Assembly (NCBI GenBank): GCA_037447655.1
Contig: JBBHKE010000417.1
Coordinates: 1-64,000, forward strand
Source of the DNA: Zygnema cylindricum
Taxonomy: Eukaryota > Streptophyta > Zygnematophyceae > Zygnematales > Zygnemataceae
Length of the DNA: 64,000 nt
Reading direction: 5' to 3'
Below the pieces are notes generated by a model that did not search any database, was not told the origin of the DNA, and saw only the letters and a program-made list of their open reading frames with translations. The position numbers were made by a program, and so were the translations under genes. Below, piece by piece: positions 781-42,703 of the stretch. Position 1 is the stretch's first letter; every line of letters begins with the position of its first letter.

Positions 781-885
781 CGTATATCGGTGGGGTTTTG
801 CCGATAACCGATGTCCTTTTTTTTGGCCTACCGATTGTCATGCCGTAAGACGTCGGCGAATATTATTATTTAATTGTATACTAAT

Positions 886-1251
886 TGACGTTTAGGTGAA
901 GTGACAAGTTCATATCCGAAAGTACAACTGGAGATGCATACGGGACAAAGATCGTATTATACTCCCGTACGGCACAGTGGGAACACGATGTGGAGTCCGC
1001 GTGGGACTAGACCGTGGTATGGCATCAGATGTCAGGAATTTAAACGGCTTCAAACCTGACACATGTCTGAAGTCATGAGCCCTCGGAGGTTCATGCATTA
1101 TTTTCGCTTAGCTTAGGGAGGGTTTTTATCCTCCAGGTGTAGATGTAAGGCATCCCGAGGCGGCCACGCAGCGGTCGTCTCTAGAAACTGGCAGCGTTTG
1201 CACATAGAAACCTGCATGCTCAGAGACACATAGGAATTAGCGTAGCTGTAC
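886..1251 (+). repeat. Gyp1 5' terminal repeat (LTR)
   Basis: About 366 bp closely matching 17486-17851. The shared block starts at TAATTGACGTTTAGG and stops abruptly after GTAGCTGTAC, where the two copies diverge. Flanks differ on both sides, as expected for LTRs. The usual TG start can be placed at 886, but the right end is not CA, so the true ends may be slightly different. Confidence 0.75.
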
Positions 1252-2361
1252 GGTTAGTGAAAGCATAGGATAAATGCCATTTGGCAAGATAGGAACTTTG
1301 CAAATTAAGTACGGGGATCCAACATTGGGAAGTTGTCGTTTTCTGGCAAGCTTTTTCTCGATATTTGTCGAGCCTTGTTACAATTAGGATTTCACCTAAA
1401 CATTTAGTGACAGGCTAGTTTTGAGTTAGGGTTTTCTTTCACACCCATAGTCTATGCTATTGGCTGTCTCTAAGCTCCATATTTTCTTTGTACCAAGTCC
1501 TCTTGTTTTCTTGCTGTCAGAGGGTTGACTTTGCAGTCTAGCTCTCCTCCAGTCTGGCCTAGGGGAATACCGGCTATCTCGACTCCTTCAACTAACTAAG
1601 GAAGGGTTATAGGGAAGGGCTCTTGCTTATTGGTTGGACTCCTGTAGGGAATATTAAAAGACTTCAGGGCCTAGTGGCTACTGTCGCAAATAATCCCGTA
1701 CTTAATTTGTTTTTCATTTCTAATTTTCTTTATTCGTTGTGTCAATTGTTTTCTTTCTGTCTAGTTTATTTTAATTTGTTTCATTTCTAATTTTCTTTAT
1801 TCCTTGTGTCTCATGTCTAGTTTGTTTTTCATTTGTTGGTAATTAAAAAAAAAAAAAACTTGTTATGCTTTGTTTTCATGTTATTTGTTGTCTAGTTTGT
1901 TTTTCAATTGTTCAATATGAGATTGTTGAACTGTCCAATATCGTTTTCTCTTCTTTCTTCCAACCTGATTAACTCACTCAGGACACCTAGAAAACTTAAA
2001 AACTTAAAATAAAAAAAAAAAAGAAACCTCAAATATATATCAATATATAAAGTAAGTTGCACGAGTTATAACATCGAATTATCGTTGCTTTATTGACAGG
2101 TAGGGCGTGGCATAGCGTTGATACGCGTAACATAACAGGCTAATAACTACGTTGGTATTTTGAGCTGTGATCTTTTCTCGACAATTCCGGAATTGGAGGG
2201 AGGTTGGAGTATCACAGGGAGACCTTACCAGGTGAGTAGTCGGGTCCTTGTGGTTGCACGCGCGTGATAGGTTGTTAAGTGCGGTAACCTAGAGGGGTTA
2301 GGATCCAACCGAAGGCTGTGCTTTCCTTTCCGCATAGGCATTGTGGTTGCATTTTCTTAAG

Positions 2362-2569
2362 ATCTGACCGTGATTGGTCTTGGATAACGACTTTTTGTCT
2401 ATTACATCTGGCCTTGTTGGGCCTGGATAATTTCCTGTTTTATTACATCTGGCCTTGTGGGCCTTAGATAGTTTCATGTTTTACTACATCTGGCCTTATG
2501 GGCCTTGAATAGTTTCCTGTTTCATTCAATCTGGCCACAAGTGGCCTTGCATAGGTGACATGTTTTTTC
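2362..2569 (+). repeat. 41-bp tandem repeat in the Gyp1 leader
   Basis: Five units begin with ATCTG at 2362, 2406, 2447, 2488 and 2529, so spacing is 44, 41, 41 and 41 bp. Each holds a GGCC...GGCC pair that could fold locally. Related but scattered ATCT-GCC motifs occur in the Gyp2 leader around 60250-60440. Confidence 0.75.
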
Positions 2570-2665
2570 TTGGAGTGGCTTGAAATGACTTATTGTGGTA
2601 TTGCTCTTGCATAGGTGACATGTTTTTTCTTGGAGTGGCTTGAAATGACTTATTGTGGTATTGCT
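2546..2665 (+). repeat. Perfect 60-bp tandem duplication
   Basis: Positions 2546-2605 and 2606-2665 are the same 60 bases. Identity suggests a recent slip or unequal exchange in the leader. Confidence 0.9.
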
Positions 2666-3414
2666 TAGATCTGGCTGTGAACATCCTTGTTAGGGGTGTT
2701 CACGATTAGACTAACCCCGGTGATACAGAATAGATCAAATCGTTTACGGGGGTGCCTGTTTGCGTGAATTTGAAGACTTCCTGTGTGATTTTAATATTAG
2801 ATCCGGCAGTGGGCATTTGCACACTGACCCTGAGTAGGGTACGACAGCTAGTTGCATCCGGTAGACTGTCTGCTTACCTGCCAACAGAATGGAACAATTT
2901 ACCGCCGTTTCCAGCTGGTACCACTAAAAGCTCTAGTCTTTACCGTGGACCGGACCATGATTTGATTCCCGCCCGCTCACCTCCTGTCCAATTTCGTCAT
3001 ACCGCTCAGTCTCGGCTTACAAGTTCACGCGACTCTAGATCAGGTATTACCACCACATATAGATCTACATCATTTGTCTCTTCGTCTTCTTCCTATAGCT
3101 GGGGGGAAGATTCGGACATAGACTCCCTTGATATCCGGGATCTAAATCTACCGCCTTCTCCTTTTCTTTTGGGCGGAAATATGCACACTAACTCCGATTC
3201 CTTTTTTGTGGATATGGCCTCGTCCATAGACACCGGAGGAGGTAGAAATCAGTTTTGTTTTTCGGGTCTCAAAGACACTATGTCCTTGTCACATTTTCGC
3301 ATGCTTTTTGATACTGAGATGCGCGATCTCGCATTTCGGTATCAAGACCGTTATGATTTACGGGTTGTTTTTTCGTTACTTGGGGGATACCTTAGAGGAT
3401 CTACCCTATCTGTA

Positions 3415-3516
3415 TATACACGGAAATATGCAGCAATTTGTGTTATGACAGAAATGGCACCCGCATATACACGGAAATATGCAGCAATTTGTGTTATGAC
3501 AGAAATGGCACCCGTA
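3415..3516 (+). repeat. In-frame 51-bp tandem duplication inside gag
   Basis: 3415-3465 and 3466-3516 differ by about one base. They duplicate 17 residues (YTRKYAAICVMTEMAP plus one) without changing frame. Gyp2 has a single copy at the equivalent point (YSRKYHGILAMTEFSP). Confidence 0.85.
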
Positions 3517-4217
3517 TATTTTGGATCTTTAGCTATAACAGGCAGTCCAGAAACTCTTTTCCAAGCCTCGGTACCCGCAGTTTATGACTTTGCAGGTAAC
3601 CAAATTTCACCTGAAATACCTAAGATCCCTCATCAGTTCGTCGTTGCGGCTCGGGCAGCAATTCCAACTCGCCCTGCAATACTGGTTCCTCTAAGGGACC
3701 CAGTATCATTTGTCTTCAGTTTATTACAGGAAGAGTACCGAATGCAGAATCCCGATCAGGTTAAGAGAACTAATGAATTTCGAACGTCGCCCAGACAAAA
3801 CCGCTCCGGCATTACGAGCACGTATAGAAACATTACGTGAAGCACTGCCAGATCTCATGTTAGACGCAGAGGCAGTACAGAAATTTGTGGGGCAATTTCT
3901 TACCCAATCTCGACGTTTCATTCAAAGCCATTTGACTGAGGCATATGGCCTCAAATTTACTTTCGAGCAGGCTGCAGATATGCCGTACGGTATGAAATGC
4001 AGACCAGTTGGTGGGACGCTCATGAGCAACCTAAGTCTTCTCATAACGCAAACCCGAATCCTAATCCTAATCCACGCAACCCATGGCCCAATCCGAGACC
4101 TCAAATGGCTCGAGCCATGGGAACATTACCAACGACCCCTGGTGTTCGTATATGCTTCCGATGTGGTAACAGTGGTCATGACGCACGCGGCTGTCCGGAT
4201 AAGACTGCCAAGGGTCA

Positions 4218-4405
4218 CATTGTAATCAAACAGGGCATTATGTACGTCGATGTCACATTAAAAATCCCAATTTGAGTTTTCAAAATCAAATAAAAAATGA
4301 CGAGGTGTTCTCATTGTAATCAAACAGGTCATTATGTACTTCGACGTCACATTAAATATCTCGATTGCAGTTATCAAAATCAAATCAAAAACGGCGGTAT
4401 ACTTG
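4218..4405 (+). repeat. Diverged 94-bp tandem duplication over zinc knuckle 2
   Basis: CATTGTAATCAAACAG occurs at 4218 and 4312, and similarity continues for about 90 bases after each. The first copy has decayed more (stops in frame). Gyp2 has one copy, so this is a Gyp1-specific duplication. Confidence 0.75.
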
Positions 4406-4836
4406 CTCGCTCGCCGAAATTGGTCACTCCACCCAAAAGGGCAGAGAAAGACAACCCTCCAAAATTCAGCAGGAGGGACCGAGAGAAAGCCGAGATGCAG
4501 GCTACCATGGCGGCCATGATGAAGGAACAGTTTGCCGCGCTTATGGCGCAGGTCAAACCGCAATTAACTGGAATAGCCCGAACTGTGGTCCATATTCCCT
4601 CCTTCGCTGGTCGATCTCTTTGGGAGTCAACTATCCAACTGCGGGCAGCTGAGTTTAAAGGGACTCACGATCATAATCGCAAGTCAAAATTCATTAACAC
4701 GCGTATCCTATTATCGTTTGCCAAAGAACCTTGCTCACCTATTCCAGAAACGGCCTGAAGCATCACCGCCGAAGCATTAACAATTCTGGAGAGGAGCATA
4801 CAAGACACCTATAAGGTCAAAAAACGTTTATCAATC

Positions 4837-5300
4837 TTGTGCACCATGCTTCCCGAACATAGCAACGAAAAAACTGTAGATCTAACCCCTTCAGCAGTGG
4901 CGTTACTGGCACTTCAAAACCATCGTAATGCCCTCTGCTTTCAAGCTATTACTTTTGAAGAGCGTTCTAGCCTCACTCCTCACATCAGTTTCCTAGATAA
5001 TAACTTGGGCGTTTTTACAATTAATGGGGTTGCTCCGGCGTTGCCTCTCATGGACACGGGCGCAAAACCTATTATCCTCGGGTAAGAATTTGCCATAAAA
5101 ATAGGTCTTACAGCAGATAAGCTACAACCCACTACCACACGTCTGTTGACTTTTGCAGGTACCACAGAGCCGATCCTCGGTATTATGACAAAACCAATCT
5201 GTTTTCAATTTCAGAGTCAGTCAGCGACCGATTTCGCAGAAATATATGATCATGCCTTGGTCACCAAGTGTAGTGATTATGAATGTCAATGGTCAAGACG
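4837..5300 (+). pseudogene. Gyp1 aspartic protease, broken
   Basis: An 82-codon open stretch 4837-5085 ends soon after the active-site motif MDTGAKP (Asp codon 5053-5055). In-frame continuation past the stop (GLTADKLQPTTTRLLTFAG) looks like the flap and body of a retropepsin. Retropepsins mature the Gag-Pol polyprotein as dimers. From 5300 to 5635 the reading frames are too damaged to assign. Confidence 0.65.
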
Positions 5301-5635
5301 CCATTTTCCGAGCTAGCGGAGGTGATATAATGACTTACATTTCTTCAGACTGGAATCAACTTCGAACCTAAAATTTGCTTTTACCCTTATTCTATTTCGG
5401 AACCCATGCCTATTACCGCCCATTCGGCGCTGATCTTGCCAGCCTATGTCGCAATTGGCATAGGTGCAGACATCTTTGAATCTCTAACAGCGGATGAAAT
5501 CTCACCAAATCCCTCGGGTTTACCATAATTATTTTGTACATTCCGATTTACCATTAACTCTTCGGATTTTGACGACTATACAAATTTACTATTCCAATTC
5601 CTTTCTCCAATATTCTAGATCCACCCTTCATTACG

Positions 5636-6660
5636 ATGGATCCTTTTGGGTTCGTGCCCATTAAATGGAAACCGGTCAGTTTGCAACCTCACCAGAATGG
5701 TCTTGTTATTTTAGACCTTTTCGCAGGAATCGGTACTTCACTTCTCTCTTCCCTGCGGAACGGGCTTATTATTAAACACTATTATTCGTTAGATATTGAT
5801 CCCTTGGCTAGGTGCGCTCAGCTGCTTCACTGTCAAATCTTGCATGAACAATATCCACACGTTTTACCACAGTCCGCTTTTCACGACATGCATTCGGCTC
5901 TACCATAGGATATCCGCCTAATAGGAAATCACCATTTGTTGGAATTAGATACAATCGATCTCTTTTTTGCGGGATGGGGAATGTCAAGGTATGTCAAGAG
6001 CCGGGAAAGGTTTGGGTCTTGCGGATTCACGTACTAAGTTTTTTTTGGAGGTGGTGCGTCTTATCCACTTATTCTAAAAATTGGACCGTCCTTTTAGATA
6101 CCTCTTAGAAAACGTCACAGCTTATAATGACCCTCAACCCATGGTCCTCACAGATTACAAACGCATTGAATCATTAATTGGTCCACCATTGATCATTGAT
6201 GCCGCATGCCACGGTTCGCTGGCCCACCAGGTTCGTTCCAAATGGACTAACCAAGTGGACATAGGCCGGCTCAGAGAAGTTAACCTCGCTGTCCGATCAC
6301 CTAACCTGTCCATTCAAATGCACTTCTTCCATTTCATAAAGTCCAAACATGTATCCAAACAGATTATCCCCTTGCTTTTTGTTTTAATATCCTTGGCCAG
6401 CCACTACGTGCACTCCCCACACTAGTCGCATATCCGCACTCTCACGCATATTCCCATAACGGACCGCGCATGCTGCAAAATACACATACATGTAGCTTAG
6501 AAGAATCTATTGTTGCAGAACAGGAACACCTCTTACATTTTATCCCAGGCACCACTACTGCTCCAGGACTTACCGAGCGGCAACGTTGGACCTTACTTGG
6601 TCATGTCATGGACCCGCAATCATTGTCATTTGTCTTAGGCATGGGGTTTGTAGCCGGTGG
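5636..6660 (+). pseudogene. DNMT3-like C5-cytosine methyltransferase domain inside gypsy pol, broken
   Basis: Motifs appear in the order of a C5 DNA methyltransferase. Motif I DLFAGIGT is at 5714-5737 (AdoMet binding). Motif II-like SLDIDPLARC starts at 5786. Motif IV is IDLFFAGW at 5954-5977, followed after a one-base frame slip by CQGMSRAGKGLGLADSR (Cys codon 5982-5984, the expected catalytic residue). Motif VI is LLENV near 6105-6116. The motif VIII-like stretch AHQVRSKWTN is at 6222-6251. A motif X-like segment LLGHVMD, near 6593-6613, lies in the same frame as the RT. The DAxxxxSxAHxxR...WxN pattern and short target-recognition region fit DNMT3 rather than DNMT1. Stops at 5906 and 6075 and frame changes near 5980 and 6430 mean this copy is inactive. 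It sits between protease and RT in one orientation, so it is part of Pol, not a stray host gene. Confidence 0.82.
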
Positions 6661-7947
6661 ATACGCACAGAACTATCCGATACCACCAAGTATACACCAT
6701 TTCATTTCCGAATCCTCACCTTCTCTTTGGGGTACAACTTTTCAGCTCGCTCTTTTTCCTTTTCGCGCTAAGTTTGACACAGATCACACTATTTATGATT
6801 TTATGGAACCTAGTCACATGAGTTGGTCCCTCCCAGCATACACAGCTGGTAGATCTCACATATCGGTACGGGCATCACCACACTTGACAGTTGCATTTCC
6901 ATCTAGAAGTTGGCATCATGTAGTAAAATGTTCACATCAGCTCCCAGTAAAGTATGAGTTGGGACACTCTTTAATAGCGGATGAGCACATAGCATTTGCA
7001 CAGGCCATGGAAGCCATGACCATCGCCACACCCGAAAAACCGACATGGAAATTCGGAACGGGACTAACAAAGCCGGAACACGAAATTTTAGATGAAGTCA
7101 TAAACCGTCAAATAGATGCATTCGCTTTCTCCATGAAAGACTTAGGTCGATACACCACTTACAGAATGTCCATTGACCTACAAGATGAAAAACCTATATT
7201 TAAGCCAAAGCATCGCCTATCAGAAACTGAATGGGAATCCTTGGACAAACGATGCGCAGAATTAGAAGAGGCAGGTCTGATCTTTAGGTCCGATTCCACC
7301 TTTGCGGCGCCCGCTGTTATGCCCCGTAAAAAAGAAGCGGAAGGGAGTTTTAAAGAACGTCGCATGTGTGGGGACTATTGAGAACTCAATTTGCGTACAA
7401 TCCACGACCGACATCCAATGCCGTTGGCTTAGGATATTTTTTATCATGTTGGAGGAGTTAAATATTTCATCATCATAGATCTCCGACAGGGATTTATTCA
7501 AATCGAAATAGAGGAAAAAGATCGACACATGACTGCATTTTGGGGTAGTGACGGACGTTGGGAATGGGCAGATATGCCCTTTGGACTGAAAAATGCACCG
7601 GCAGTATTCCAGAAAGTCATGGACTCAGTCTTGGGGGGATGTAAGCTTGCCCGTTGGTGTATCGACGATCTAATCATCGCTTCATCCTCTATAGAGGAAC
7701 ATGGAGTGCATATAGAGTGAGTCTTGAAGGAATTAAAAAAGGTAGGACTCAAATATCATCCTGCCAAATGGACTTTCGCGGCCGAAGGCGTACCATATCT
7801 TGGGCATTTTATCTCGTCCGAAGGAATTACCCCACTAGAAGTCAGAGTGGAAGCGATTAGTAAACTATCGGCCCCAACTGATTTGACTAGCCTGCGTGCA
7901 TTCCTAGGGTTGGCCATTTTTTATCGGAGGTTTGTTCCTAGTTTTAG
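6661..7947 (+). pseudogene. pol: Gyp1 reverse transcriptase, N-terminal part
   Basis: The open frame 6470-7381 carries the end of the methyltransferase and then RT fingers (YRMSIDLQDEKPIFKPKHRL, AAPAVMPRKKE). After a stop at 7379 the palm continues with IIIDLRQGFIQIEI and MPFGLKNAPAVFQKVMD, both gypsy RT hallmarks. The catalytic YxDD box reads CIDD near 7660: Tyr has become Cys. A stop at 7718 is followed in frame by the thumb (YLGHFISSEGITP). The domain is cut at 7947 and resumes at 15471. Confidence 0.85.
7943..7947. other. Target-site duplication of CopA1 (left)
   Basis: TTTAG at 7943-7947 is repeated as TTTAG at 15471-15475 on the far side of CopA1. Five bases is the usual copia length. 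Confidence 0.85.
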
Positions 7948-8166
7948 TGTAGAAATTAATGGTACATTTTTTAGTATTTTCTAGGTCTAAATAGAAATAT
8001 AGAAAGAAGCCGAGGCATCTACCTCTAACTTCTCTCTCCAAACTCTCAAACTTGTCGCAGTCACTGAGAAATTGGAGAGGGAGCTAGAGCCATAGCTACC
8101 TAGGCTATCCAGAGGTTTACGGGAAATTTATATAAATTAAAGGGTTTATTTTATCTATAATATATG

Positions 8167-8245
8167 TGCCGGCCGCAGGATTTGATCCCTGTACCTACCG
8201 GCCGGCAGACATCAGATAGCCGGTAGCCTTAGCCGTTAAGTCTAG
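8167..8245 (-). other. Antisense tRNA-like module in the LTR
   Basis: Read on the - strand, an A-box-like TAGACTTAACGGCTAAGGC (8226-8244) is followed by a T-arm-like CAGGGATCAAATCCTG (8176-8191) with a B-box-like core, then CCGGCA. A CCGGC/GCCGG pair lies between them. No 5' acceptor strand pairs with the 3' end, so it is not a working tRNA. Equivalent modules lie at about 13081-13158 and 14630-14709 and in other LTR families here. Confidence 0.5.
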
Positions 8246-8530
8246 GACTAGTATTACGTAGTATATAATTTGATATTTATTTATACATGTATGCGTAGGA
8301 TTAATCATTTAACTCTAATTTATTACGGGATACATAGATCCGGTAATGTGTAAAGTACGGATTAGAGTACGGATAGAAAATCAATACATCGCATTTATTT
8401 CTTAATTGAAACGAATGTCGCACAAGTTTTTATTACGGCTACGATTAAATCCTGATTTAATCGGACGGTCGGAATTAGCGCCGAGATCGCGGAAGAAGAT
8501 TACGGCAGTTTGTGGCCATCGCCACATCGG

Positions 8531-8545
8531 ATGACACGTGGCGAA
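8531..8545 (+). promoter_or_regulatory. G-box/ABRE-like motif in LTR
   Basis: ATGACACGTGGCGAA contains CACGTG with the ACGTGGC extension bound by plant bZIP factors. The same ATGACACGTGGC word is found in the LTRs at 42141-42154 and the other array LTRs (opposite strand), 26485-26498 (opposite strand) and 62684-62695. Confidence 0.5.
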
Positions 8546-8630
8546 ATTACATTGGATCGTGGAATCTCCGGAGATTATGGCACCGAATCCGGATATGACA
8601 TGTGTCGACATTTAGGCCATGTCGTACAAT

Positions 8631-8674
8631 GTCCGTACCTAAAGTACACCGGCAGCTGTACTTTTGCGTACGGA
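8631..8674. promoter_or_regulatory. Conserved GTAC hairpin in LTR
   Basis: Left arm GTCCGTACCTAAAGTACAC (8631-8649) pairs imperfectly with right arm GTACTTTTGCGTACGGA (8658-8674). Similar hairpins with different loops occur in the array LTRs (42012-42051 in the first), near 26347-26390 and near 62764-62815. Confidence 0.5.
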
Positions 8675-8987
8675 ACTGTATTCTGATTGGTTCCGTACAT
8701 CAGTAGATAGAGTCTGTGAGAGAGATAGGACTTAGAAAAATTAGGAGATAGGACCCTCTCTCCCAGAGAGCTTCTGTACAAAAGGTGAACTTTGACCCTC
8801 CATAACTTACTGCTCAGGAGAACAAATTCAGAGATTCTTTTTGCTATCGACTCAGGGGAGCCTTGCCTTCACACGGGTTCAGGTGGTTAGGGTTTTTGTT
8901 TGCCAGGGTGGCAGTTATTTTTGCTGAAACAAAAAGGGGTCAAGATTATCCTAGAGGCTTCTTGGAAGCTGTCTACTTTGAGGACTT

Positions 8988-9665
8988 ATGGAGGTCTCAG
9001 AGTTTCAGGTTATGGGCCCACCCTCTAGGGTACCAATCTTTAATGGAACTGGCTTCATATACTGGGAAAGTATGATGATAGGAGCTCTATGCGAAAAAAG
9101 GTTTTGGGGGATAGTGAGTGGACGGTTGGGGCGTCCATCAAGTCTTGGAATTCCTCCAGGGTTTGGAGGAACCAGATTCACCAGGAAAGAGGATCCACCT
9201 TCAACGGAGGAAACAAAAGAAAGAGAGGTGGTGGACAAAGGAAAGGAGAAGGAGACGACCACACCAATTGCAACTGGTTCGACATTCATGTCACCTATTC
9301 CGAGGAACGAGGAGAATGATACTGAAACCTGGGACTTCAACAATATGGCGGCAAATCACTTCATCCTACGCCATCTCACTCAAGGACTTGCATGTCCTCA
9401 TTTGCAGGTAGAAAGGGCATCCGATCTTTGGATGGCTCTCATAGAGATGTACCGAAATGGTACGATTCAGCAAACACAGTTGGCTGATCAGAAAGTTAAG
9501 GAGTATGTATACAAAGGGGGAAATATGTTGGATTTTTGCAATGAGCTTGCTACACTCTTCATGGAGCTAGAGAGTGCGGGAAAAGATTTTAGTGAAAAAG
9601 AAAAGGTTAATTGTTTACTGATGAAGTTACCTGATGAGTTCGTGAACATAGTTTACCGTGTGTAG
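8988..9665 (+). pseudogene. gag: CopA1 gag, N-terminal part
   Basis: Starts at the ATG inside the LTR (MEVSEFQVMGPPSRVP) and reads across the primer site. Copia Gag features follow: FNGTGFIYWESMM, then WDFNNMAANHFILRHL, a helical core (EMYRNGTIQQTQLADQKVKE) and LMKLPDEFVNIVYRV. It stops at TAG 9663-9665. The next frame continues the protein directly, so one stop separates two halves of Gag. Gag forms the particle around the RNA. Confidence 0.85.
9008..9022 (+). promoter_or_regulatory. Primer-binding site (half-tRNA type)
   Basis: GGTTATGGGCCCACC follows the LTR directly. It is complementary to the anticodon stem-loop of plant initiator tRNA-Met as I recall it, not to a tRNA 3' end. That is the half-tRNA priming described for Drosophila copia and yeast Ty5. 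It is also read as gag codons (QVMGPP). Confidence 0.7.
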
Positions 9666-9668
9666 GAC

Positions 9669-10616
9669 TTGCCTGACTCAAGGTGGATATGGAACTCAGT
9701 GGTAGGGATGATTCTCGTTCAAGAGAATACAATTGAGATCCGAAAGGGAGGAAAGAGTGGCCAAGCCTTGGCAACAGCGACTGATTGGAGGAACAGGGAT
9801 TCCCGAAAACCGGTCGGAAACTATGGGGGTATGGAGCAGAAAAAACAGGTCGACGAGTTCGAACCAAGGGCTCCCAAAGGTTTATGTCATTTTTGTAAGA
9901 AATCGAGGCACTATATGGCAGAGTGCACTAAGCTAACCGAGCTTCGGCTAAAGGAGGGGCAGACCGGTGGTACCCCGAGAGGAAAGAAAAAAGCCCTTGT
10001 CACACAGGTACTTGAGGCGGAATCCGAGGACGAGGACGATGAGCTCCTTTTGGATGAGGAGTTGGAGGCGAAAAATGAGGTCGAAATTCCACGAAGGCAG
10101 AAATGTGCTTACGGTGGATTGAAAGGTGAAGCAGGCTGGATCATAGATTCAGGTGCCTCCATGCACATGTGTAAGGATAGGCACCTGTTCACTAAGATAA
10201 GAAAGATTCCCACCGTAGAGATAGAGTACGGGGATGGGAGGATAGTCACCACTACTCTTGTAGGATCGGTAGATCTGAAAGTGTTAGTAGAAGGAAAGAC
10301 ATCCATATTAACATTCTCCGATGTATTGTTTATTCCGGAGCTGAACAAAAATCTTATCTCTACATCAGTATTAGATGATAAGGGTTTTTTTACTAGCACT
10401 AGGGAAGGAGTTTTTACTGCTAGTTTTGAGGAGGATGTCTATTTCATTGCTGAGAAAGGTAGCCATGGGATGTTTAGGCTGATTTTAAGTAATGAAACGA
10501 AGAAACTTTATTATGCTGGTGTTCATGATATTATGATGTGGCATAAGAGGCTTGGGCATGTGAATCTAGATAAGTTAAGAGAGATGAAAAAGATGGGAGT
10601 AGTGGAAGGGATTTAG
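9669..10616 (+). pseudogene. gag-pol: CopA1 Gag C-terminus, zinc knuckle, protease and pre-integrase region
   Basis: This frame continues Gag (SRWIWNSVVGMILVQENT), then has a CX2CX4HX4C knuckle (CHFCKKSRHYMAEC, near 9889-9930) and an acidic stretch. The copia protease motif WIIDSGASMHMC starts near 10138. The pre-integrase motif MWHKRLGHVNLDKLR starts near 10537. A TAG at 10614-10616 ends it, and the conserved CSGCAQGKAHRLPFP follows beyond the stop, so the break is a mutation in one polyprotein. Confidence 0.85.
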
Positions 10617-11390
10617 TTCAGTGAGAGTGATGATATAAGTGATTGTAGTGGATGTGCTCAAGGTAAAGCACACAGATTACCCTTTCCTAAATCAGCCACT
10701 TATAAGGGAGAAAAAATTCTAGATCTAGTACACACAGATATTTGGGGACCGCCTAAAGTGCCCTCACCGAGGGGGAAGAGATTTATGATGACTATAACTG
10801 ATGATTGGTCTCGGTATTCCCGGGTGTATTTTTTGAAAAACAAGTCAGAAGCTCAGGATTGTTTTAGACAATATAAAGCGTGGAGCGAAAAACTCCATGA
10901 AACTCCAATCAATAGAGTAAGGAGTGACAATGGTGGAGAGTATACTTCTAACCAGTTTGAGGATTTTCTGAGGGAAGATGGGGTTCAACACCAAAAGACA
11001 GTTCCAGAAAATCCGGAACAGAATGGGGTAGCTGAAAGGTTAAATAGAACACTAAGTGATAGTGCTAGAAGTATGTTGTCAGATAAAAAGATAGGAAAAA
11101 GGTTTTGGGCAGAAGCAATGAACTGTGCTAATTACCTCAAGAATAGAGTTCTTACTTCAGCTATAAAAGATCAAACACCTTATGAGAGATGGACAGGCCG
11201 GAAACCAGACATATCTCAGTTAAAGGTTTTCGGCAGTCAAGTATTCAATCTAGATACTGATCGGTCCAATTAGAAGCTAGATCCTAAAGGAAAACCGGGA
11301 TACTTATTAGGATATGATGAGGATGTTAAAAGATATAGAGTTTATGATCTAAAAAGGGAAGATATAATCTTAGTATAGCATCTAGTAGTT
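10617..11390 (+). pseudogene. pol: CopA1 integrase
   Basis: The zinc-binding Cys pair (CSGC) and the first catalytic Asp (HTDIWGPP) lie at 10645-10750. The open stretch to 11273 has TITDDWSRY, the second Asp in RSDNGGEY and the Glu in PEQNGVAERLNRTL, so the DD35E set is intact. A copia-type C-terminus follows (YERWTGRKPD, KVFGSQVF). Stops at 11271 and 11377 interrupt it; reading resumes in the same frame (KLDPKGKPGYLLGYDED). Confidence 0.85.
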
Positions 11391-12613
11391 ATGGATGAAG
11401 GAAAGTCTGTGGATCCCTTCAAATATACGAAGTCAGTAAAAATCAGATTTGAGTCAGAAAATTCCGTTGACTTTGAGCTTCCTAACTATCCAGGTTTTAG
11501 AGAAGATGACATTCTTGCAGGAACAAATCAGACCGAAAAGGACTCGGCTGTGGAAACTCCAGTGACAACTCTACTCGAAGCGGAAGACGTGGTGGAAATT
11601 GATTCGGAATCAAGGGATAGGGGAGAAGCCGAGTTTGTTCGAAAGAATCCACGAGAACCATCTATTCCGGCCTCAGATTTTGAGGGGGGGAGGAGAAGTA
11701 GCAAAAGACTGCAAGAAAAACAGGATAATAACAAGGTAACTAAACTATCTCATCAAGATGAACCTCAAACTTATGGAGAGGCGATGACTTGTCCAGAAAG
11801 AAACCGGTGGAAGACAGCCATCAATGAGGAGATGGCTTCAATCATGGCAGCCGATACTTGGGAGCTGGTGGACTGTCCACCTAACCGAAAACCAATCGGT
11901 TGTAAGTGGGTTTTCAAATTAAAACTGAACCCAGATAACACAATCGAGCGGTACAAGGCCAGATTAGTGGCAAAGGGATTTACAAAAAGGAAGGAATTGA
12001 CTACGAGGAAACCTTTGCCCCGGTGGTCAGATTTCCCTCCGTCCGCATACTTCTCAGTTTAGCAATGGCGGAAGACATGGAAGTGCATCAGATGGACATC
12101 AAGACAGCCTTTTTGCATGGAGAATTGGAAGAGGAGATCTTCATGCGACAACCCGAAGGTTTTGTGGAGGAAGGAGAGGAGAGTAAGGTATGCCTGCTGA
12201 TTAAATCTCTTTATGGTTTGATACAGGCGCCTCGACAGTGGAATAAGAAGCTTGATGAGTTTCTTACCGGTCAGGGATATATTCGGATCAGCTCAGATCA
12301 CTCAATCTATGTTTTCGAAGATGAGGAAGGTTTTATATTTATTGCAATTTATGTTGATGATTTGCTTGTTTTAAGTAAATCAATGGAAAAAATTAACAAA
12401 CTGAAAACCGATCTTAAGGGGAGATTTGAAATGAAGGATATGGGAGAAGCAAGATATATTTTGGGAATTCAAGTAGAGAGAGACCGAAAAAGGAAAATTA
12501 TAAGACTGACTCAAAAGGAAGCAATAGGGAACATGCTTGAAAAATTTCAAATGGATAAAGCTAATAGTTGTACAACTCCAATGGAGTTGAAAAAGGGAAG
12601 TGAGGGGAGTTAG
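11391..12613 (+). pseudogene. pol: CopA1 reverse transcriptase
   Basis: First frame 11391-12010: an acidic linker, then TYGEAMTCPERNRWKTAINEE and WVFKLKLNPDNTIERYKARL, the start of copia RT. A frameshift near 12000 moves homology to the frame that continues with RFPSVRILLSLAMAEDME and DIKTAFLHGELEEEIFMRQ. The catalytic box YVDD is intact at 12350-12361. A TAG at 12611 ends the open frame inside the RT-RNase H link. Confidence 0.85.
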
Positions 12614-14398
12614 GAAGAAGGAGTCATAGTCTTAGACGAGGAATTATCTCCTGAAGAACAGAAGTTCATGCAGACTATTCCTTACAGGCAAGTAGTGGGA
12701 AGTCTAATCTATTTTATGAATTGTACCCGGCCGGATTTAGCTGCAGCTGTAGGAGTGCTGAGTAGAAGTCTAAATGCTCCCACTAAGAAGGATTGGGAGG
12801 CAGCTAAGAGAGTCCTTAGATATTTGATAAGTATTAGGGATCTATGGTTGCATTTGGGTGGGGAGAATACTGTAGAAACTAATGGTTTTATTAGTATTTT
12901 GTAGGTCTGAAAAGAAATATAGAAGTCGAGGCAGTCTATCTCTAACTTCTCTCTCCAACTCTCAAACTTGTCGCAGTCACTGAGAAATTGGAGAGGAAGC
13001 TAGAGCCATGGCTACCTTGGCTATCCTGAGGTTTACGGGAATTTTATATTAGGGTTTATATATTTATTTAAAAGGTATGTGTCGGCGGCAGGATTTGATC
13101 CTTGTACCTACCGGCTGGCAAACAGGAAGTAGCCGGTAGCCTTAGCCGTTAAGTCTAGCCGTAGTGTTACGTACCATATAGTTTGATATTTATTTAAATG
13201 ATTATACGTGCGATAATCATTTAACTGGAATGAATTACGGGATACATAGATCCAGTAATATATAATGTACGAATTACAGTACGGACAAAAATCAGTACCG
13301 CGCATTTGTTTCGTAAGTGAAACAAATACCGCGCATGTATTTATTACGGCTACGATTAAATCCGAATTTAATCGGACGGCCGGGATTAGCGCCGAGATCG
13401 CGGAGGAAGATTTCGGCGGTTTGTGGCCATCGCCACATCGGATGACGCGTGGCGAAATTCCGTTGGATTGTGGAATCTCCGGAGATTATGGCACCGAATC
13501 CGGATTTGACATGTGTCGACATTTTGGCCATGTCGTACAATGTCCGTACATAAAGTACACCGGCAGCTGTACTTTTGCGTACGGAACTCAATTCTGATTG
13601 GTTCCGTACATCAGTAGATAGAGTCTGTGAGAGAGATGGGACTTAGAAAAATTAGAAGATAGGACCCCCTCTCCCAAAGAGCTTCTGTACAAAAGGTCAA
13701 CTTTGACCCTCCATAACTTACTGCTCAGGGGAGCAAATTCAGAGATTCTTTTTGCTACCGACTCAGGGGAGTCTTGCCTTTACAGGGGTGCAGGTGGTCA
13801 GGGTTTTTCTCTACCAGGGTGGCAGTTATTTTTGCTGGAACACAAAGGGGTTAGGATTATCCTAGAGGCTTCTTGGAAGCTGTCTACTCTGAGGACTTAT
13901 GGAGGTCTCAGAGTTTCAAATACTGACATCACTACTTGGAGTGATGCCAGTTATGGTGATGCTCCGATGAGGAGATGTACTTCTGGATATGTATTATATG
14001 TGGGTGATGGGGCTTGCTGTTGGAGTAGCAAACAACAAAAGGTTATTGCTCAGTCCACCATGGAGGCTGAGTATATGGCCTCTTGCTCTGCTGTAAAAGA
14101 ATTGATGTGGGTCAAGTCTTTGCTTGGTGAGCTTGGTCACCTTAAGAGTGGTGTGCATAAAATTTTTTGTGCTAATCAGGCAGCAATCGCTATTTCTGCC
14201 AATCCTAAACATCATTTTAAAGCCAAACACATGGACATCAAACTCAGCTTTGTTGGAGAGAAAGTAGAAAACAAAATAATCAGTTTAGAGTACAGACCAG
14301 ATAGTGAGATAGTAGCAGATATGATGACCAAACCTGTGCCTTCCCCTAAGCTAATTTTCTGCAGGGAGAAGTATGGTCTAAAATTAAAGATTGACTAG
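12614..14398 (+). pseudogene. pol: CopA1 RNase H, split by a solo LTR
   Basis: The first part 12614-12870 has PYRQVVGSLIYFMNCTRPD and ends at LGGEN. The second part 13919-14398 resumes with DITTWSDASYGDAP and continues with CCWSSKQQKVIAQSTMEAEY, HHFKAKHMDIKLSF and ADMMTKPVPSPKL, ending at TAG 14396-14398. The two parts join in frame once the LTR and one copy of its target duplication are left out. Confidence 0.88.
12871..13918 (+). mobile_element. Solo LTR of the CopA family
   Basis: Starts TGTAGAAACTAATGG, ends CTCAGAGTTTCA, and matches the CopA1 LTRs with clear divergence. The 5-bp target duplication is AATAC (12866-12870 and 13919-13923). No internal sequence remains, so it arose by LTR-LTR recombination after insertion. 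Confidence 0.9.
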
Positions 14399-14410
14399 AA
14401 AATAAGGGAG
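14399..14410 (+). promoter_or_regulatory. CopA1 polypurine tract
   Basis: AAAATAAGGGAG lies between the RNase H stop and the 3' LTR, the place and composition expected for the plus-strand primer. Confidence 0.7.
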
Positions 14411-15470
14411 TGTAGAAATTAATGGTACATTTTTTAGTATTTTCTATGTCTAAATAGAAATATAGAAAGAAGCCGAGGCAGTCTACCTCTAACTTCTCTC
14501 TCCAAACTCTCAAACTTGTCGCAGTCACTGAGAAATTGGAGAGGGAGCTAGAGCCATGGATACCTAGGCTATGCAGAGGTTTACGGGAAATTTATATAAA
14601 TTAAAGGGTTTATTTTATCTAAAATATATGTGCCGGTCGCAGGATTTGATCCCTGTACCTACCGGCCGGCAGACATCAGATAGCCGGTAGCCTTAGCCGT
14701 TAAGTCTAGGACTAGTATTACGTAGTATATAATTTGATATTTATTTATACATGTATGCGTAGGATTAATCATTTAACTCTAATTTATTACGGGATACATA
14801 GATCCGGTAATGTGTAAAGTACGGATTAGAGTACGGATAGAAAATCAATACCGCGCATTTATTTTTTAATTGAAACGAATGTCGCGCAAGTATTTATTAC
14901 AGCTACGATTAAATCCTGATTTAATCGGACGGCCGGAATTAGCTCGAGATCGCGGAAGAAGATTTCGGCGGTTTGTGGCCATCGCCACATCGGATGACAC
15001 GTGGCGAAATTACATTGGATGGTGGAATCTCGGGAGATTATGGCACCGAATCCGGATATGACATGTGTCGACATTTAGGCCATGTCGTACAATGTCCGTA
15101 CCTAAAGTACACCGGCAGCTGTACTTTTGCGTACGGAACTGTATTTTGATTGGTTCCGTACATCAGTAGATAGAGTCTGTGAGAGAGATAGGACTTAGAA
15201 AAATTAGGAGATAGGACCCTCTCTCCCAGAGAGCTTCTGTACAAAAGGTGAACTTTGACCCTGTATAACTTACTGCTCAGGAGAGCAAATTCAGAGATTC
15301 TTTTTGCTATCGACTCAGTGGAGTCTTTCCTTCACAGGGGTGCAGGTGGTTAGGGTTTTTGTCTGCCAGGGTGGCAGTTATTTTTGCTGAAACACAAGGG
15401 GGTCAAGATTATCCTAGAGGCTTCTTGGAAGCTGTCTACTCTGAGGACTTATGGAGGTCTCAGAGTTTCA
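14411..15470 (+). repeat. CopA1 3' LTR
   Basis: 1060 bp, near-identical to 7948-9007, starting TGTAGAAATT and ending GAGTTTCA, followed by the TTTAG target duplication (15471-15475). It again carries the gag ATG 20 bases from its end. Confidence 0.92.
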
Positions 15471-16205
15471 TTTAGCACACTTGCCTCTCCACTAAATGAA
15501 CTCTTAAAAGAATTAGGTTTGCTCACGTGGGGACCCTCGCATATCGAGGCATTTCAGGGATTAAAGGACGCACTGTCCACAGCTCCTATTCTTCATCCAC
15601 CAAATCATAAGTTACCATTTTGCCAACAGACACACTTTGGTAAGCCTGGTATTACGACCATCCTAACTCAATGTGAACTCACAGGTGAGTAATATGTGTA
15701 GCTTATGCCAGTCGAAGCAACAATCAAGCGGAATCGAATTACAGTAGCTATGAGGGGGAGTGCCTTGCCGCAGTTTGGGGAATTGTGCATTTCCGCCATT
15801 CCGCCATTATCTTTATGGAAAGCCTTTCACCCTTCTTACTGACCATCAACCATTGCATTGATGTATGACCAATGACAAATTGTCTCGCAAATTAGCCTGG
15901 GCTCTTATTTTACATAATTATGACATTTAAATAATCCATCGACTCGGGCTCCTCAGTTTGAATGCCGACGGCCTCTCCAAAAACCCTTTACCCAACTCCA
16001 TTGGTAATGGTGTAAGACAAGATTTTGATGACGAATCAGTTGCATTTGTATCGGTGGGAGCACATCTGATTTACAGTTTTGCAGCACCTACAAATTACAA
16101 AACCGACCCCATCCATGGCGGGACTACGCTTTGGTTCTCTTTTTATCCACTCGGTCTTTTCGAGCGGGCACCTAGGAGAGTGTTTGTAACAGAGCCCAAA
16201 ATTGC
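15471..16205 (+). pseudogene. pol: Gyp1 RT end and RNase H (resumed after CopA1)
   Basis: Reading resumes with LASPLNELLKELG and HIEAFQGLKDALSTAPIL, the gypsy RT-RNase H connection, then KPGITTILTQ. From 15690 the frames are badly broken. Short islands ([26 protein letters not shown] near 15961) are RNase H landmarks. The last is the usual end of gypsy RNase H. Confidence 0.8.
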
Positions 16206-17205
16206 TTGTGGATGGGGGGCTCACTTATTCGTCTTCTCTCTGATGGAAGCCATCGGTATGTCCCTCGGCCAACGGAACGACTATCGCTTATCAACCAGAT
16301 TCATACAGATCTTGGACATTATGGTAATAAACGGACCTTGAGTTTAGTACATGCACGCTATTGGTGGTCGGGCATGCAGGCCGACGTGGCGTCAGTGTTG
16401 CACGTATGTAGCACATGTGATCGGTTACGTACTTCATTTTCTAACCGACAGACTACACTTCAGCCCTCTTCCATTCGGGGTCTCTTTTACAGGTGGTCGT
16501 GTGATCTTACACGTCTCTTTCCCATTTCTAGAAGGGGCAAGCAACACATCATGATAATGATCGAGAATTTCAGCAAATGGGTGGAAGTTATGGCACTGTC
16601 GCAGAAAACTGCCAAACTCACCACCGCAGCTTTTAAGGAGCACGTGCTCCTCCGATATGGAGCCCCTGCAAGAGTACTTACGGAACAAGGATCCGAGTTT
16701 CGTGGCGAATTTCAAGAGATGTTGGATGATGCGTTAATTGATCACCGACGAACGAGTCGTGATCATCCTTCAGTAGACGCTTTGGCGGAGAGAGCTGTAC
16801 AAACATCTAATTGGGTTTTGCGTAAACATTGCTTAGAAAAGCAGATTACCGTGTGGGATGAATCATCGGGATATATTGCCATGGGTTATCGGATTTCTGT
16901 ACAGGCAAATTTAGCAAATTTCTGTCCATATTATGTGTTGTTTGGCCGAAAACCCACTACTAGATAGAAATGTACAGAAAGCTGCTAGCCTACTTTTGCC
17001 TCTTATGTTTGATTCTCTTTTCCTGGAAGATTTGACCAACCGAGCATTGCTTTTTGATAGGGAAATGCCTATGGCTTTTGAAAATTTGCAAATTGCCCAA
17101 CATCGCGACTCCTTACGGTTTGCAACGACTCGCAGTGGCATTACCGGCCACAACAAAAACCCTTTCAGGTGGGGGATTACATTTATTTTTGACGGCAAAT
17201 TTTGA
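16206..17205 (+). pseudogene. pol: Gyp1 integrase
   Basis: The zinc region is HTDLGHYGNKRTLSLVHARY with CSTC (HHCC type). The core has the first Asp in WSCDLTRLFP. The second acidic site reads LTEQGSEF, where TDQG is usual, so Asp has become Glu. The Glu is in DALAERAVQT. After a stop at 16965 homology continues (LFDREMPMAFENLQIAQHRD). The substitution and stops make it inactive. It would have joined the DNA copy to the chromosome. Confidence 0.82.
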
Positions 17206-17488
17206 CACACTCGACATGGATGTTTCAGCTCACATCTTGAGGATAACAAAAATCGACTCAAAAGGATTATCAAGCCTACAAGGGGCGGACACGCGAACTT
17301 TGCGGGAGCATTCGAAAAATTGTGCCCCTTGCTACCTACCTGATCTTTCCCACAGTATGGACCTGTGGCGGATGCCGATTACCGGGGCCACTGAGTGTCA
17401 GTTATGTTGGCGATCTGATGGAGAAACAAGAATGCTCCTCTATGACTATTGCAATCTGGGATTCCATACGGAGTGTTTTGTTAATTGA
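17206..17488 (+). pseudogene. Gyp1 integrase C-terminus with half a PHD finger
   Basis: After the SH3-like segment (HILRITKIDSKGLSSLQG, then NCAPCYLPDLS) the frame reads CQLCWRSDGETRMLL, YDYC, NLGFHTEC. This is the PHD order CX2C...(C)X2C-X4-H-X2C with the third Cys replaced by Tyr. The final CX2C pair is absent: TGA at 17486-17488, the first bases of the 3' LTR, ends the protein. PHD fingers read histone H3 tails; in an intact element this could guide integration. Truncation could belong to this copy or to the family. Confidence 0.65.
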
Positions 17489-17851
17489 CGTTTAGGTGAC
17501 GTGACATGTTCAAATCCGAAAGTACAATTGGAGATGTGTACAGGACAAAGGTCGGATTATACTCCCGTACGCCACAGTGGGAACACGATGTGGAGTCCGC
17601 GTGGGACTAGACTGTGGTACGGCATCAGAAGTCAGGAATTCAAACGGCTTCAAACTTGACAGATGTCTGAAGTCATGAACCCTCGGAGGTTCATGCATTA
17701 TTTTTGCCTAGCTTAGGGAGGGTTTTTAACCTCGAGGTTTAAATGTAAGGCATCATGAGGCGGCCACGCAGCGGTCGTCTCTAGAAACTGGCAGTGTTTG
17801 AACATAGAAACTTGTATGCTCAGAGACATATAGGAATTAGTGTAGTTGTAC
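17486..17851 (+). repeat. Gyp1 3' terminal repeat (LTR)
   Basis: Matches 886-1251 over its full length with scattered substitutions, more than seen between the CopA1 LTRs, so Gyp1 is the older insertion. No polypurine tract is obvious just upstream. Confidence 0.75.
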
Positions 17852-19930
17852 CTGATCTCGCTCTATATTTTATTTTCTTGCTAAGTCCATGTGTTTGGAA
17901 TAATTTGCTTTTTCGGGCAGATTCATTTATTATTTCTTGCAGTATATATGCTTTGTACTCCGGTTGTGGTCACAAATACTGTACATATGTAATGGTCATT
18001 CATTTTCTGGTGTTTATCGGCGACTCATGTTGGATGTGATGCATGCCATTCACGGTTGTACTGTCATGCACGACACGATAATCGATATATTGGCACGATA
18101 AATTGGTACCGATGTTGTCCCGACGAAAAACCAATAATATCGGTATTTTGTCGCGATATCACAGGTACCAATAACTATTGGAAACTATTTTACGGTTTTC
18201 CGTAAAGCTCTACGGATAGCTGTCCGTACTAAACTCCAGTTGTACAAAGTATGGAACAGATTGTCATACGTGGCATGCCACGCTATATACAGTCAAAAAT
18301 ATAATACAATATATAATAAAGTACTATTATATAGCGTACTATATTTTTTCTACTTATCGCCGATAAGGAATTTGTTGGTCTCGGAGCGATATATCGGGAC
18401 CCCTCACCGTTCGATAACCGATAACTATCGGAATCGGTTTGTCGCGATAAGTTTCTTGCCGATACACAACAGTACTAAATATAGATGTGATGCGTGTATA
18501 ATGCACTTATGCAATAAATGTATATAAAAAATAATAATTTTCTGCGTTATATAATAATATAACATATAATATAACACTGCGTTACACATGTAGTAAACAT
18601 ATACACGTAATAAGAATAAGAAATACAATACGAAATACAACGATCTCACACGTCTAAGCACTTTTGATCTATGAGACACTTAAGGTGACCTTCAATGTTT
18701 AATATTAATTAGAATGTGAGAACAAATTGGAGGATGTCATGTAGACGTTTATAATTTTACATTTAAACGGTTTTTGATATATGTCACCCGTCATAAACGA
18801 CAATATTTATGGAAGGTCTTGATTTAGCAATTGTCATAACCACAATCTTGTGATGGTAATCGCCACCGAAACTGGTGTCTCCAAAAAAAATCGCACTCAC
18901 CTTACTGCTTTTTCGTACGGCTCAAATCTTTTCTTGAAAATTTGTACGGAGAAAACAAGAAGTTTCTGGCGAAGTTTACACGAGTCATTTATAAAATATC
19001 GGAAACGATAAAAAGGATTGCGTTCACTTTTTGCTCCTGTGGTCCACTTTTATGTCGGTGAAATAGAATCTGAAAAGTACGATTCTGTATGATTCGACAG
19101 GCTTCCAGATATTGCCGCGTGCTCCTTAAACTCAAAATAGCCTGGCAGACTGTGCCACGTTTATGCTGACGATTTGAGGATAATCATTTACGATTCTCTC
19201 TGTCGCGTAAGATCAATGTACGGAGAGAGGACCAAGAGCCGTTCTGACATTTTTTGTCTCATTGAGTTTAATGTTCGATATCGACTGTACGTTATATATT
19301 GTAACCACGTATAGTACATTCACATGCAGGTTTCTGGTAAGATTTCTGGCGTCCGTACATCGCGGGCATCGAGGCACGTCGACCAAAACCAAATCAGGAT
19401 ATGCTCCTTTTTTGTTTTTTCCTCTCATCGCGGACATTGATTCGCTCATACGAATTTTCGGCACGTCGTGTCGTATTTTTTGCATGCGGCATTTATGATC
19501 GCATGCAGATTTTTGCAAATCAGATCGCGATTCTTGATACATTTGAAGATATCGGTGGGAAGCCAATTGGAGGCTTTAAAAGGCGTCAGAGATTTTCCAA
19601 GCGTACAATCTGGGTCTGTAAGCGTGGTGAGATATCCTCCGGGGAATATTTTACTGTTGATTTTAGTGGATTTTGGTAGAATTGCAATCCATACTGTCCT
19701 AAGGCGCATGCACTAACACGTGGAAGGGGTGTGCCCATGTGTCAAAGTAACGGTTTTTCTTCTGTCGTTTTGATCCAAGATTTGAATCTGCCACGAGAAA
19801 ATCTTTTGCCGTGCGTACATTCTGTAAAAGTCATTTGTACAATTATATAGATAATTGTATGCATCTATATATAGACATATAGATATAAGCATAGACACGC
19901 TTATATATTTGTTTATCTATATGTATAATT
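17852..19930. other. Intergenic, no gene seen
   Basis: AT-rich DNA with short CGATA/TATCG iterations at 18070-18460. The open frames present are short, overlap on both strands and match nothing I know. Confidence 0.55.
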
Positions 19931-41529: not shown

Positions 41530-42703
41530 TGAAACTCTGAGACCTCCATTGGCCCTCAGAGTATGAAGATCCAAAAGAAGCTAATCTAGATAGTGCCGAC
41601 TCCAAGTTAATATAAACCCAAATGACTGACCCTTTGACAGTCACAATCCCAATATAGATTCACCCCTGTGAAATAACACTTTCTGTGTGCTCAGTTCCAC
41701 CACAGAATGCAAAGTTAGAATATGAGATTTGGACACATTCACCCACTATGACTTTCCCTTATAAATGCAGCCACCCTGGCAGACAAAAACTCTGACCGAC
41801 TACACCCCTTTGTAGCCTGGACTCCCTTGAGTCCGCAGGAAAAAGAATCACTGAAAATGGTCAAGTAAATTGATAGTTATGGCTGGCCAAAGTTTGCCAT
41901 TTATACAAGGTGCTCTCTGGGAGAGGCAGCAATCTACCCAAAATTTTCTAAGTCCTATTCCCTCTCTATAACTCTATCTATTGAAGTAGGGCACCAATCA
42001 AATTACTGTGTCGTACAGAAAAGTATAGGTGCCGGTGTACTTTCTGTACGGCCATTATACGACATGGCCAAAATGTCGATACGTGTCAAATCAGGATTAG
42101 TTCTTGTAATCTCCGGAATCCCCGTAATCCAATGTTATCATGCCACGTGTCATCTGACGTGTCAAATACCGTAAAACGCCAAAAGTACCTTTTCCGTGAT
42201 CGCGGCGCCTATAGCGGCCGTCCGATCAAAACTGGCTATAATCCTAGCCGCTGAAATTCGACGCGCGGTATTTGTTTCGCTATCGAAACAAATGCGCGAT
42301 ATCCGTTCTGTCCGCGTACCGTACTACGCACTAATTCAAACTGTATCCAGGCACTAAGTATCTATTCGCCGTTAAACGAATTAATCTACATGTAACGATT
42401 TATATATTTACCAAATCTAATATATCGTAATATTTGTCCTAGCCTAACGGTCAGAGCTAACGTCTATGTGAAATTGGCGGACGGCACGTACCAGGATCAA
42501 TTCCTGGGTCCGGCAACTAACTTTTAGTAAATATATCTAATCCACCCCATGTCTTCTCTAATGAGCTTTAGGCAGCCATGGCTCTAGCTCCCTATCAAGC
42601 CTTCACTGACTACAACAAGTGTGGGGGCTTGGAGAAGGGAGTTAGGGACAGACTGCCTTTGCTCTTTTTCTATAAAGACCTAGAAAATACTCAAATATTA
42701 ACA
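41530..42703 (-). repeat. Array LTR 1
   Basis: 1174 bp; in + orientation TGAAACTCTGAGACCTCC to CAAATATTAACA. Next to it, on the - strand, CTAGAAAATAAGGGGAG (42704-42720) is the polypurine tract of unit 1. Its gag-side third is of type A (GGCCCTCAGAGTATG). Confidence 0.92.
42440..42515 (+). other. Antisense tRNA-like module in array LTR 1
   Basis: On the + strand (antisense to the element) an A-box-like TAGCCTAACGGTCAGAGC is followed about 60 bases later by a T-arm CCAGGATCAATTCCTGG with a perfect 5-bp stem, then GTCCGGCA. The 5' acceptor strand is absent. The same module is in array LTRs 2-5 (about 45620, 48830, 52045, 55259). Confidence 0.55.

Follow-up and report, generated by a model that had tools for sequence, protein, structure and literature searches.

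A predicted DNMT3-type cytosine methyltransferase and a PHD finger in the Gag-Pol polyprotein of an abundant Gypsy-type retrotransposon family of Zygnema cylindricum

Introduction

Cytosine methylation is known mainly as a weapon that silences transposons. What, then, is a cytosine methyltransferase (DNMT) domain doing inside a retrotransposon? The question is raised by a stretch of 64,000 nucleotides from Zygnema cylindricum (assembly GCA_037447655.1, contig JBBHKE010000417.1, positions 1 to 64,000 of the forward strand; hereafter the window), in which a first-pass annotation, made from the letters alone, had placed a DNMT3-like domain between the protease (PR) and the reverse transcriptase (RT) of a Gypsy retrotransposon and had read it as a module of Pol. 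We find that positions 836-18075 almost certainly hold a dead member of an abundant Gypsy-type family that encodes, within its Gag-Pol polyprotein, a DNMT3-type cytosine methyltransferase and a PHD finger; to our explanation as a whole, the identity of the element together with the role proposed for its enzyme, we give a probability of roughly 0.75.

The charophyte precedent that the first-pass annotation had named does exist. According to the main text of a 2018 report, KnitGypsy-Dnmt3 of Klebsormidium nitens carries a Dnmt3-type DNMT, intronless and under purifying selection, in the Pol frame of a long terminal repeat (LTR) Gypsy element with the repeat structure of a DIRS element (PMC5890265); the case recurs in the accessible text of a later paper, there as LTR Copia and DIRS (PMC12344493). 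Elements of this kind have been known since 2018, and what appears to be new here is a canonical PHD finger, evidence on target sites, and kin with two domain orders in Closterium, Marchantia and Cymbomonas.

Identity of the methyltransferase domain

The DNMT motifs lie in order on the + strand, as first described, and are spread over three reading frames: motifs I and II (ILDLFAGIGT..LDID) start at 5636 in the first frame; motifs IV (ECQGMSRAGKGLG), VI (LLENV) and VIII (HQVRSKW) follow in the next; and motif X (LTERQRWTLLGHVMDPQ) stands in a frame of 6305-7381 that runs open into the RT, so that the last motif does share its frame with the RT. The order (I, IV, VI, VIII, X) is linear and non-permuted, with the catalytic Cys present. 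Taken singly the pieces are too short to score, and gave no DNA_methylase match in Pfam at E 1 and no PDB match at E 10. Joined, with an X at each break, they match Pfam PF00145 at 33.3 bits (cut-off 22), which settles in the domain's favour the profile check that had been proposed; they also match two proteins among 5.8 billion (P0001, E 9.1e-38, and another, 1.1e-13) and five longer Gag-Pol-like proteins (E 7.7e-34 to 1.7e-13). Searches by tblastn with relatives as queries place the domain at 5609-6679 (+), in three pieces of different frames with two stops, and for this reason we regard the window copy as dead.

A profile built from eight relatives with the window excluded, and scored against PDB sequences only, is best at DNMT3A (3.2e-25), followed by DRM (5.8e-13), HhaI (1e-9) and DNMT2 (about 4e-6), which bears out the DNMT3-like identity first suggested. 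The predicted structure of the relative P0001, on which the fold comparison was made in place of the window's own copy, superposes on DNMT3A/B over about 275 residues, and its fold is closest to DNMT3. The domain is a DNMT3-type C5-methyltransferase by these measures, and DNA methylation is its predicted activity.

A fixed module of the family

If the domain belongs to Pol, it should be found in other copies, and the host genome (352.8 Mb, 2689 contigs) was searched for them. The first 90 DNMT residues yielded 907 first-look candidates; 150 of these were scored, and every one proved a match (63-100% identity, E <=1.2e-34); a 95-residue RT piece yielded 2264 candidates, and all of the 150 scored matched. 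Among the 26 best-scoring RT matches (no random sample, and the window included), 23 have DNMT sequence upstream: comparison by eye with the DNMT list paired 18 of them, the DNMT lying about 3.2 kb upstream in copy C561 and about 1.8 kb upstream in the others, and 1.2 kb of upstream DNA, fetched for the eight without a partner, paired five more. The same assembly has no match to the large subunit of RuBisCO but nine to the small subunit (RbcS), these being presumably nuclear. The RbcS protein matches tobacco, Arabidopsis and spinach chains at about 1e-52 to 1e-58 and unnamed chains at up to 4e-62, against about 1e-42 for Chlamydomonas chains, which have seven more residues in the aligned part; on this evidence too the host is most likely a streptophyte.

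Ten copies were fetched, nine picked for long open frames and one (C1112) for its rank. All ten carry PR-DNMT-RT on one strand, and all ten keep the Cys of motif IV, the Glu of motif VI and the Arg of motif VIII; the Gly of motif X is kept in nine. The copy C1344 is unbroken: a single frame of 2395 codons runs through gag, PR, DNMT, RT, RNase H (RNH), integrase (IN) and PHD finger, and there is therefore no intron there. In the window the same arrangement is seen on the + strand, with PR at 4945-5286, DNMT at 5609-6679 and RT at 7028-7951. The DNMT thus placed between PR and RT is, as far as sequence can tell, a fixed module of the family polyprotein, as the first-pass annotation had argued; an intact copy of the same order exists, and the case named as refuting the claim, that other copies lack the domain, fails in the ten fetched copies and in the 23 RT matches.

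Selection and age

Ratios of nonsynonymous to synonymous divergence (dN/dS) were computed by the Nei-Gojobori method with our own script, each copy against C1344. For the DNMT they are 0.19 (C783), 0.24 (C1112, which has two stops) and 0.14 (window), and for the RT 0.08, 0.05 and 0.15, respectively; C1407 is nearly identical to C1344 and its dN/dS is uninformative, and the window gag stands at 0.63. The three informative comparisons (0.14-0.24) indicate that the DNMT is under purifying selection. In six copies of a second subfamily the dN of the DNMT is 0.15-0.17 (dS being saturated in five and 2.24 in C82) against 0.07-0.10 for the RT, so that the DNMT evolves faster than the RT and yet is constrained.

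Identity between the two A repeats (described below) within one copy is 100% in C1344 (931 bp), 99.64% in C829, 99.59% in C1063, 99.53% in C1915, 96.6% in C232 (620 bp), 91% in the window (shared part) and 80% in C449 (with gaps). Since these values span 80-100%, the family has been mobile recently as well as over a long time.

The PHD finger

All eight zinc ligands of the finger are present in the aligned stretch of seven of the ten copies; in C232 the C-terminal part lies in a second stretch whose ligands are not part of this count, the match in C82 stops before the last ligands, and C1112 gave no PHD match. An intact finger, from a related contig described below (L081), has its nearest counterparts in CHD4, PHF12, UHRF1, KDM5A, PHF21A and BAZ2, among others. 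The closest solved relatives are mostly readers of the histone H3 tail, and several read the unmodified tail.

Within the open literature, as far as the accessible text of the papers goes (PMC5890265, PMC12344493, PMC12477816, PMC6338049, PMC6453930, PMC9033089, PMC4157794, PMC12440569; subscription papers, preprints and supplements lay outside the search), we found no report of a PHD finger and a DNMT in one retrotransposon; nor, in an open-literature search of the same bounds, did we find one of this family in Marchantia, Closterium or Cymbomonas. The suggestion that the pairing may be new stands to that extent; the pairing is not private to this genome, being present in P0006, P0023, P0026, P0031, P0032 and L081.

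Split repeats and target sites

The C1344 copy is laid out as A1, open reading frame (ORF), B1, GC, A2, B2, with B1 and B2 99.5% identical. The same B follows A2 in C829, C1063, C1915, C449 and C1407, and both B ends are seen in C232. A pair of equal, complete LTRs bounding the element was not found: A followed by B occurs at the right end only. The order of domains, PR-RT-RNH-IN with a DDE integrase, is that of Gypsy; because the repeats read A1-ORF-B1-A2-B2, the element is Gypsy-type by its polyprotein and is not a canonical LTR element.

Copies of the family have TG..CA ends. In six of them the start of A1, an A2 and the end of B2 can all be seen (in four further fetched copies one or both ends lie outside view), and five of these six are flanked by perfect 4-bp duplications: TTGG, AAGG, TTGT, CCCT and, in the window, CGAT. 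In the sixth, C449, the flanks TCAT/GCAT agree at three of four bases. Split direct repeats are described for PAT and Ngaro elements in the accessible text of PMC4157794. A DIRS element was considered and is ruled out by the rve-type integrase and the 4-bp duplications, although no search was aimed at a tyrosine recombinase.

Anatomy of the window copy

The left copy of the target-site duplication (CGAT) occupies 832-835, directly before the left terminal repeat A1 (836-1692, +), which starts TGTCATGCCG and has 80-84% identity to the A repeat of C1344. A 5' leader (1693-2733, +) with tandem repeats at 2400-2522 and 2546-2665 leads to a decayed gag (2734-4225, +), whose CCHC knuckle was recognized by eye, whose DNA is 82-89% identical to C1344 from 2849 on, and which gives a weak tblastn match to Klebsormidium P0025. 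The PR (+), also decayed, was located by tblastn with Marchantia P0027 and L081 as queries (match at 4945-5283), and the RT (+), which has in-frame stops, by tblastn with relatives. The RT is split by a nested copia (7948-15470, ends approximate, +; terminal repeats 97% identical) that is not part of the system, and the RT end follows with a decayed RNH at 15429-16068 (+, tblastn with relatives). The integrase, an H2C2 part and an rve core, lies at 16176-16964 (+; Pfam PF17921, 4e-14, and PF00665, 4.7e-12), and its C-terminal part, with the first half of the PHD finger, at 17036-17481 (+), ending at the remnant of A2; this half finger scores 17.5 bits against Pfam PF00628, below the cut-off of 24. 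The A2 remnant (17482-17851, +) is 91% identical to A1 across 370 bp, and the right terminal repeat B2 (17880-18075, +), 90% identical to the B repeat of C1344, ends GCACGACA directly before the right CGAT (18076-18079). Relative to C1344 the copy lacks the second half of the PHD finger, B1 and the start of A2. An earlier reading of a 370-bp repeat at 882 and 17482 as complete LTRs was wrong, the repeat being the common part of A1 and the shortened A2.

Elsewhere in the window, a second gag, diverged but of the same Gypsy type, lies at 60554-62237 (by tblastx its main pieces match 3214-4722 at about 26-61%); it is followed by copia-like DNA, and this gag copy ends before any DNMT could be visible. 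Several copia-like copies with a spacing of about 3.2 kb and strong negative GC skew occupy 41700-56000 and have about 69-70% identity to the terminal repeats of the nested copia. A long TA-rich microsatellite at 57749-58264 gives frames of tyrosine/isoleucine repeats on both strands.

Relatives and comparison with known elements

The relatives comprise 38 public proteins, the last search having scored only the 7987 candidates that shared most words. They fall into two domain orders. The first, PR-DNMT-RT, is represented in whole or in part by Closterium proteins (P0003, P0004, P0008-P0013, P0016, P0018 and others) and by metagenome proteins P0007, P0033 and P0035; K. nitens P0025 has PR-DNMT, and in Marchantia polymorpha P0027 the knuckles were recognized by eye, PR and DNMT through their similarity. 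P0004, P0013 and P0016 contain integrase sequence and gave no PHD match. The second order, RNH-DNMT-IN-PHD, is that of Cymbomonas P0006 and of metagenome P0023, P0026 and P0031; P0032, which starts within the DNMT and so does not cover the RT, has IN, DNMT and PHD, P0029 and P0030 end after RNH-DNMT, and P0005, close to P0006, has no PHD in Pfam. With the exception of P0032, for the RT, these PHD-bearing polyproteins hold related RT, IN, DNMT and PHD in one chain; they differ from the window family in placing the DNMT between RNH and IN and not before the RT.

Trees of the DNMT were built from 19 of the 38 public proteins and the window; L081 and two copies from the host were added later, and some runs omitted P0007 and others. 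The trees, in which neither DNMT-free Gypsy controls nor a K. nitens RT were included, tend to separate the two orders. DNMTs of the second order, P0029 and P0030 included, form a clade (support 97/98; 92/98 to 99/98 with DNMT3A added; 100/98 in another tree), and the window family stands alone on a long branch whose placement is not firm, also with DNMT3A as outgroup.

Profile searches, from which the best 80 of 89 relatives among viral contigs and the best 80 of 176 among genome contigs were kept as loci, gave an RT match in one of the 160, the contig L081 (CADCWO010000201.1); P0001 as a query found no relative among the viral contigs. L081 has the order gag-CCHC-PR-DNMT-RT-RNH-IN-PHD in long open frames and a B-GC-A-like junction, one of five matches to a loose pattern. 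It is filed under a cyanobacterial metagenome-assembled genome and is most likely stray eukaryotic DNA; its ends overlap by 127 bp, reflecting contamination or a circular form. Unlike C1344, which has no such stop, L081 has a single TAG that parts gag-PR-DNMT from RT-PHD. It stands at 3489-3497 as TAG CAA TCA, with both frames in the same reading frame. The plant read-through context is UAG CAR YYA, and since TAG CAA TCA fits such a leaky stop, the DNMT of L081 may be produced at the level of Gag.

With KnitGypsy-Dnmt3, as presented in the main text of PMC5890265, the window family shares a DNMT in a Gypsy coding frame, the absence of introns and purifying selection; DIRS-like repeats are common to both, a likeness taken from the wording of a 2018 legend only. 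In P0025, a K. nitens protein recorded as partial, a CCHC knuckle, a PR match below the Pfam cut-off and a DNMT follow one another in the same order, and its DNMT is 29-41% identical by segment to that of the window. The window family differs in its PHD finger after the integrase, which is absent from the main text of PMC5890265 (supplements and figures lay outside this check), and in its TG..CA ends and 4-bp duplications, which go beyond the account given there. SymbioDIRS-Dnmt3 of dinoflagellates also has a DNMT3 domain in Pol by the RT and DIRS-type repeats, and is a tyrosine recombinase element that its authors regard, in the same text, as a separate capture (PMC5890265). Chromoviruses end Pol with a chromodomain (accessible text of PMC12440569), which is a histone-reading type of module; in the window family a PHD finger replaces it and a DNMT is added. 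In P0038, a public protein of 1287 aa, the DNMT is followed by an RT and a different type of RNase H (PF13456), and Pfam shows no Gypsy integrase; the protein may stem from a LINE-like element with a DNMT, resembling SymbioLINE-Dnmt.

Discussion

What would such an enzyme do for the element? We propose that the element's protease would cut the Gag-Pol polyprotein, that the DNMT would travel in the particle alongside RT and IN, and that it would place 5-methylcytosine on the new double-stranded cDNA or the fresh insertion; we rate this role at slightly below even odds. The PHD finger would anchor the integrase on chromatin in a particular H3 state, a part that chromodomains are thought to play in chromoviruses, and for such PHD-guided integration the odds seem about even. 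A new copy would then land pre-marked like its surroundings, which could limit both damage to the host and the detection of naked cDNA. That the element hides its own copies or shapes host methylation, as the first-pass annotation supposed, is a hypothesis.

Several observations weigh against this explanation. Three of the 26 RT matches (C122, C1601 and C2450) have no DNMT in the 1.2 kb upstream, and two of the five paired by fetching have it only in part. In C783, which has no A2, the flanks of the outer repeats differ (GGGT/TAAT). The ratio of observed to expected CpG is 0.83 in the element interior and 0.79 in the DNMT, compared with 0.72-0.77 in the rest of the window, and 0.89 in C1344, and of the 32 changes that separate the window's A1 from its A2, 7 are transitions in CpG context; with CpG undepleted, the element bears no mark of strong CpG self-methylation followed by decay. 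Motif IV reads ECQ in the window family and in six of six aligned Closterium rows, not the usual PCQ seen in K. nitens and Marchantia. Finally, the main text of PMC5890265 reports no activity of the KnitGypsy-Dnmt3 domain in a yeast assay, a result that its authors rate as inconclusive because human DNMT3B failed too.

The alternative that survives best, though we think it unlikely, is that the DNMT works in trans: serving as a brake or as camouflage, through self-restraint or by shaping host methylation, it would modify host chromatin or every copy of the family and not the cDNA of its own particle. The high copy number (the DNMT piece matched at each of the 150 places scored) and the conserved enzyme speak for it, and it is among the options named in the main text of PMC5890265; the DNMT nonetheless lies within one long Gag-Pol frame in C1344, a better fit to packaging in the particle than to a free nuclear enzyme. 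It is improbable that the domain is catalytically dead and kept for structure, to bind DNA or RNA or to assist assembly: the change of Pro to Glu in motif IV would suit such a part, but the catalytic Cys and Glu are kept in all ten fetched copies and in the aligned relatives without a gap at these positions (20 rows). A shade less probable again is methylation of RNA (the genomic RNA or a primer tRNA), a possibility raised for SymbioLINE in the main text of PMC5890265 and compatible with the lack of DNA methylation by the KnitGypsy domain in yeast; the profile scores much better against the DNA enzymes DNMT3 and DRM than against DNMT2, and the predicted fold of P0001 is closest to DNMT3. Chance insertion of a piece of a host DNMT gene into one retrotransposon copy is ruled out by the same order in ten of ten fetched copies and, wholly or partly, in Closterium, Klebsormidium, Marchantia and L081.

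Returning to a DNMT that acts on the element's own incoming DNA, we offer a broader picture as a tentative one, with the odds somewhat against it: a widespread, possibly ancient Gypsy-type clade of the green lineage (streptophytes and a prasinophyte) would join a reader and a writer of repressive chromatin, the PHD finger reading the H3 tail and steering the integrase and the DNMT3 domain writing 5-methylcytosine on the incoming copy, an echo of the ADD-plus-catalytic layout of animal DNMT3. The DNMT would have moved within Pol at least once (before the RT or before IN), and integration would be of DDE type despite the DIRS-like split repeats.

The window family is a PHD-bearing, highly amplified variant of unusually complete anatomy, its function being predicted; its PHD finger, and its split repeats with DDE-type target duplications, are features of which we found no description for the published Gypsy element in the main text of PMC5890265. 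An abundant, recently active family that conserves its own DNMT3 reverses the picture of methylation as a weapon against transposons, and provides a natural test of why elements would methylate themselves. Recent copies, one of them unbroken, would make that question testable, as would kin in the genetic model Marchantia.
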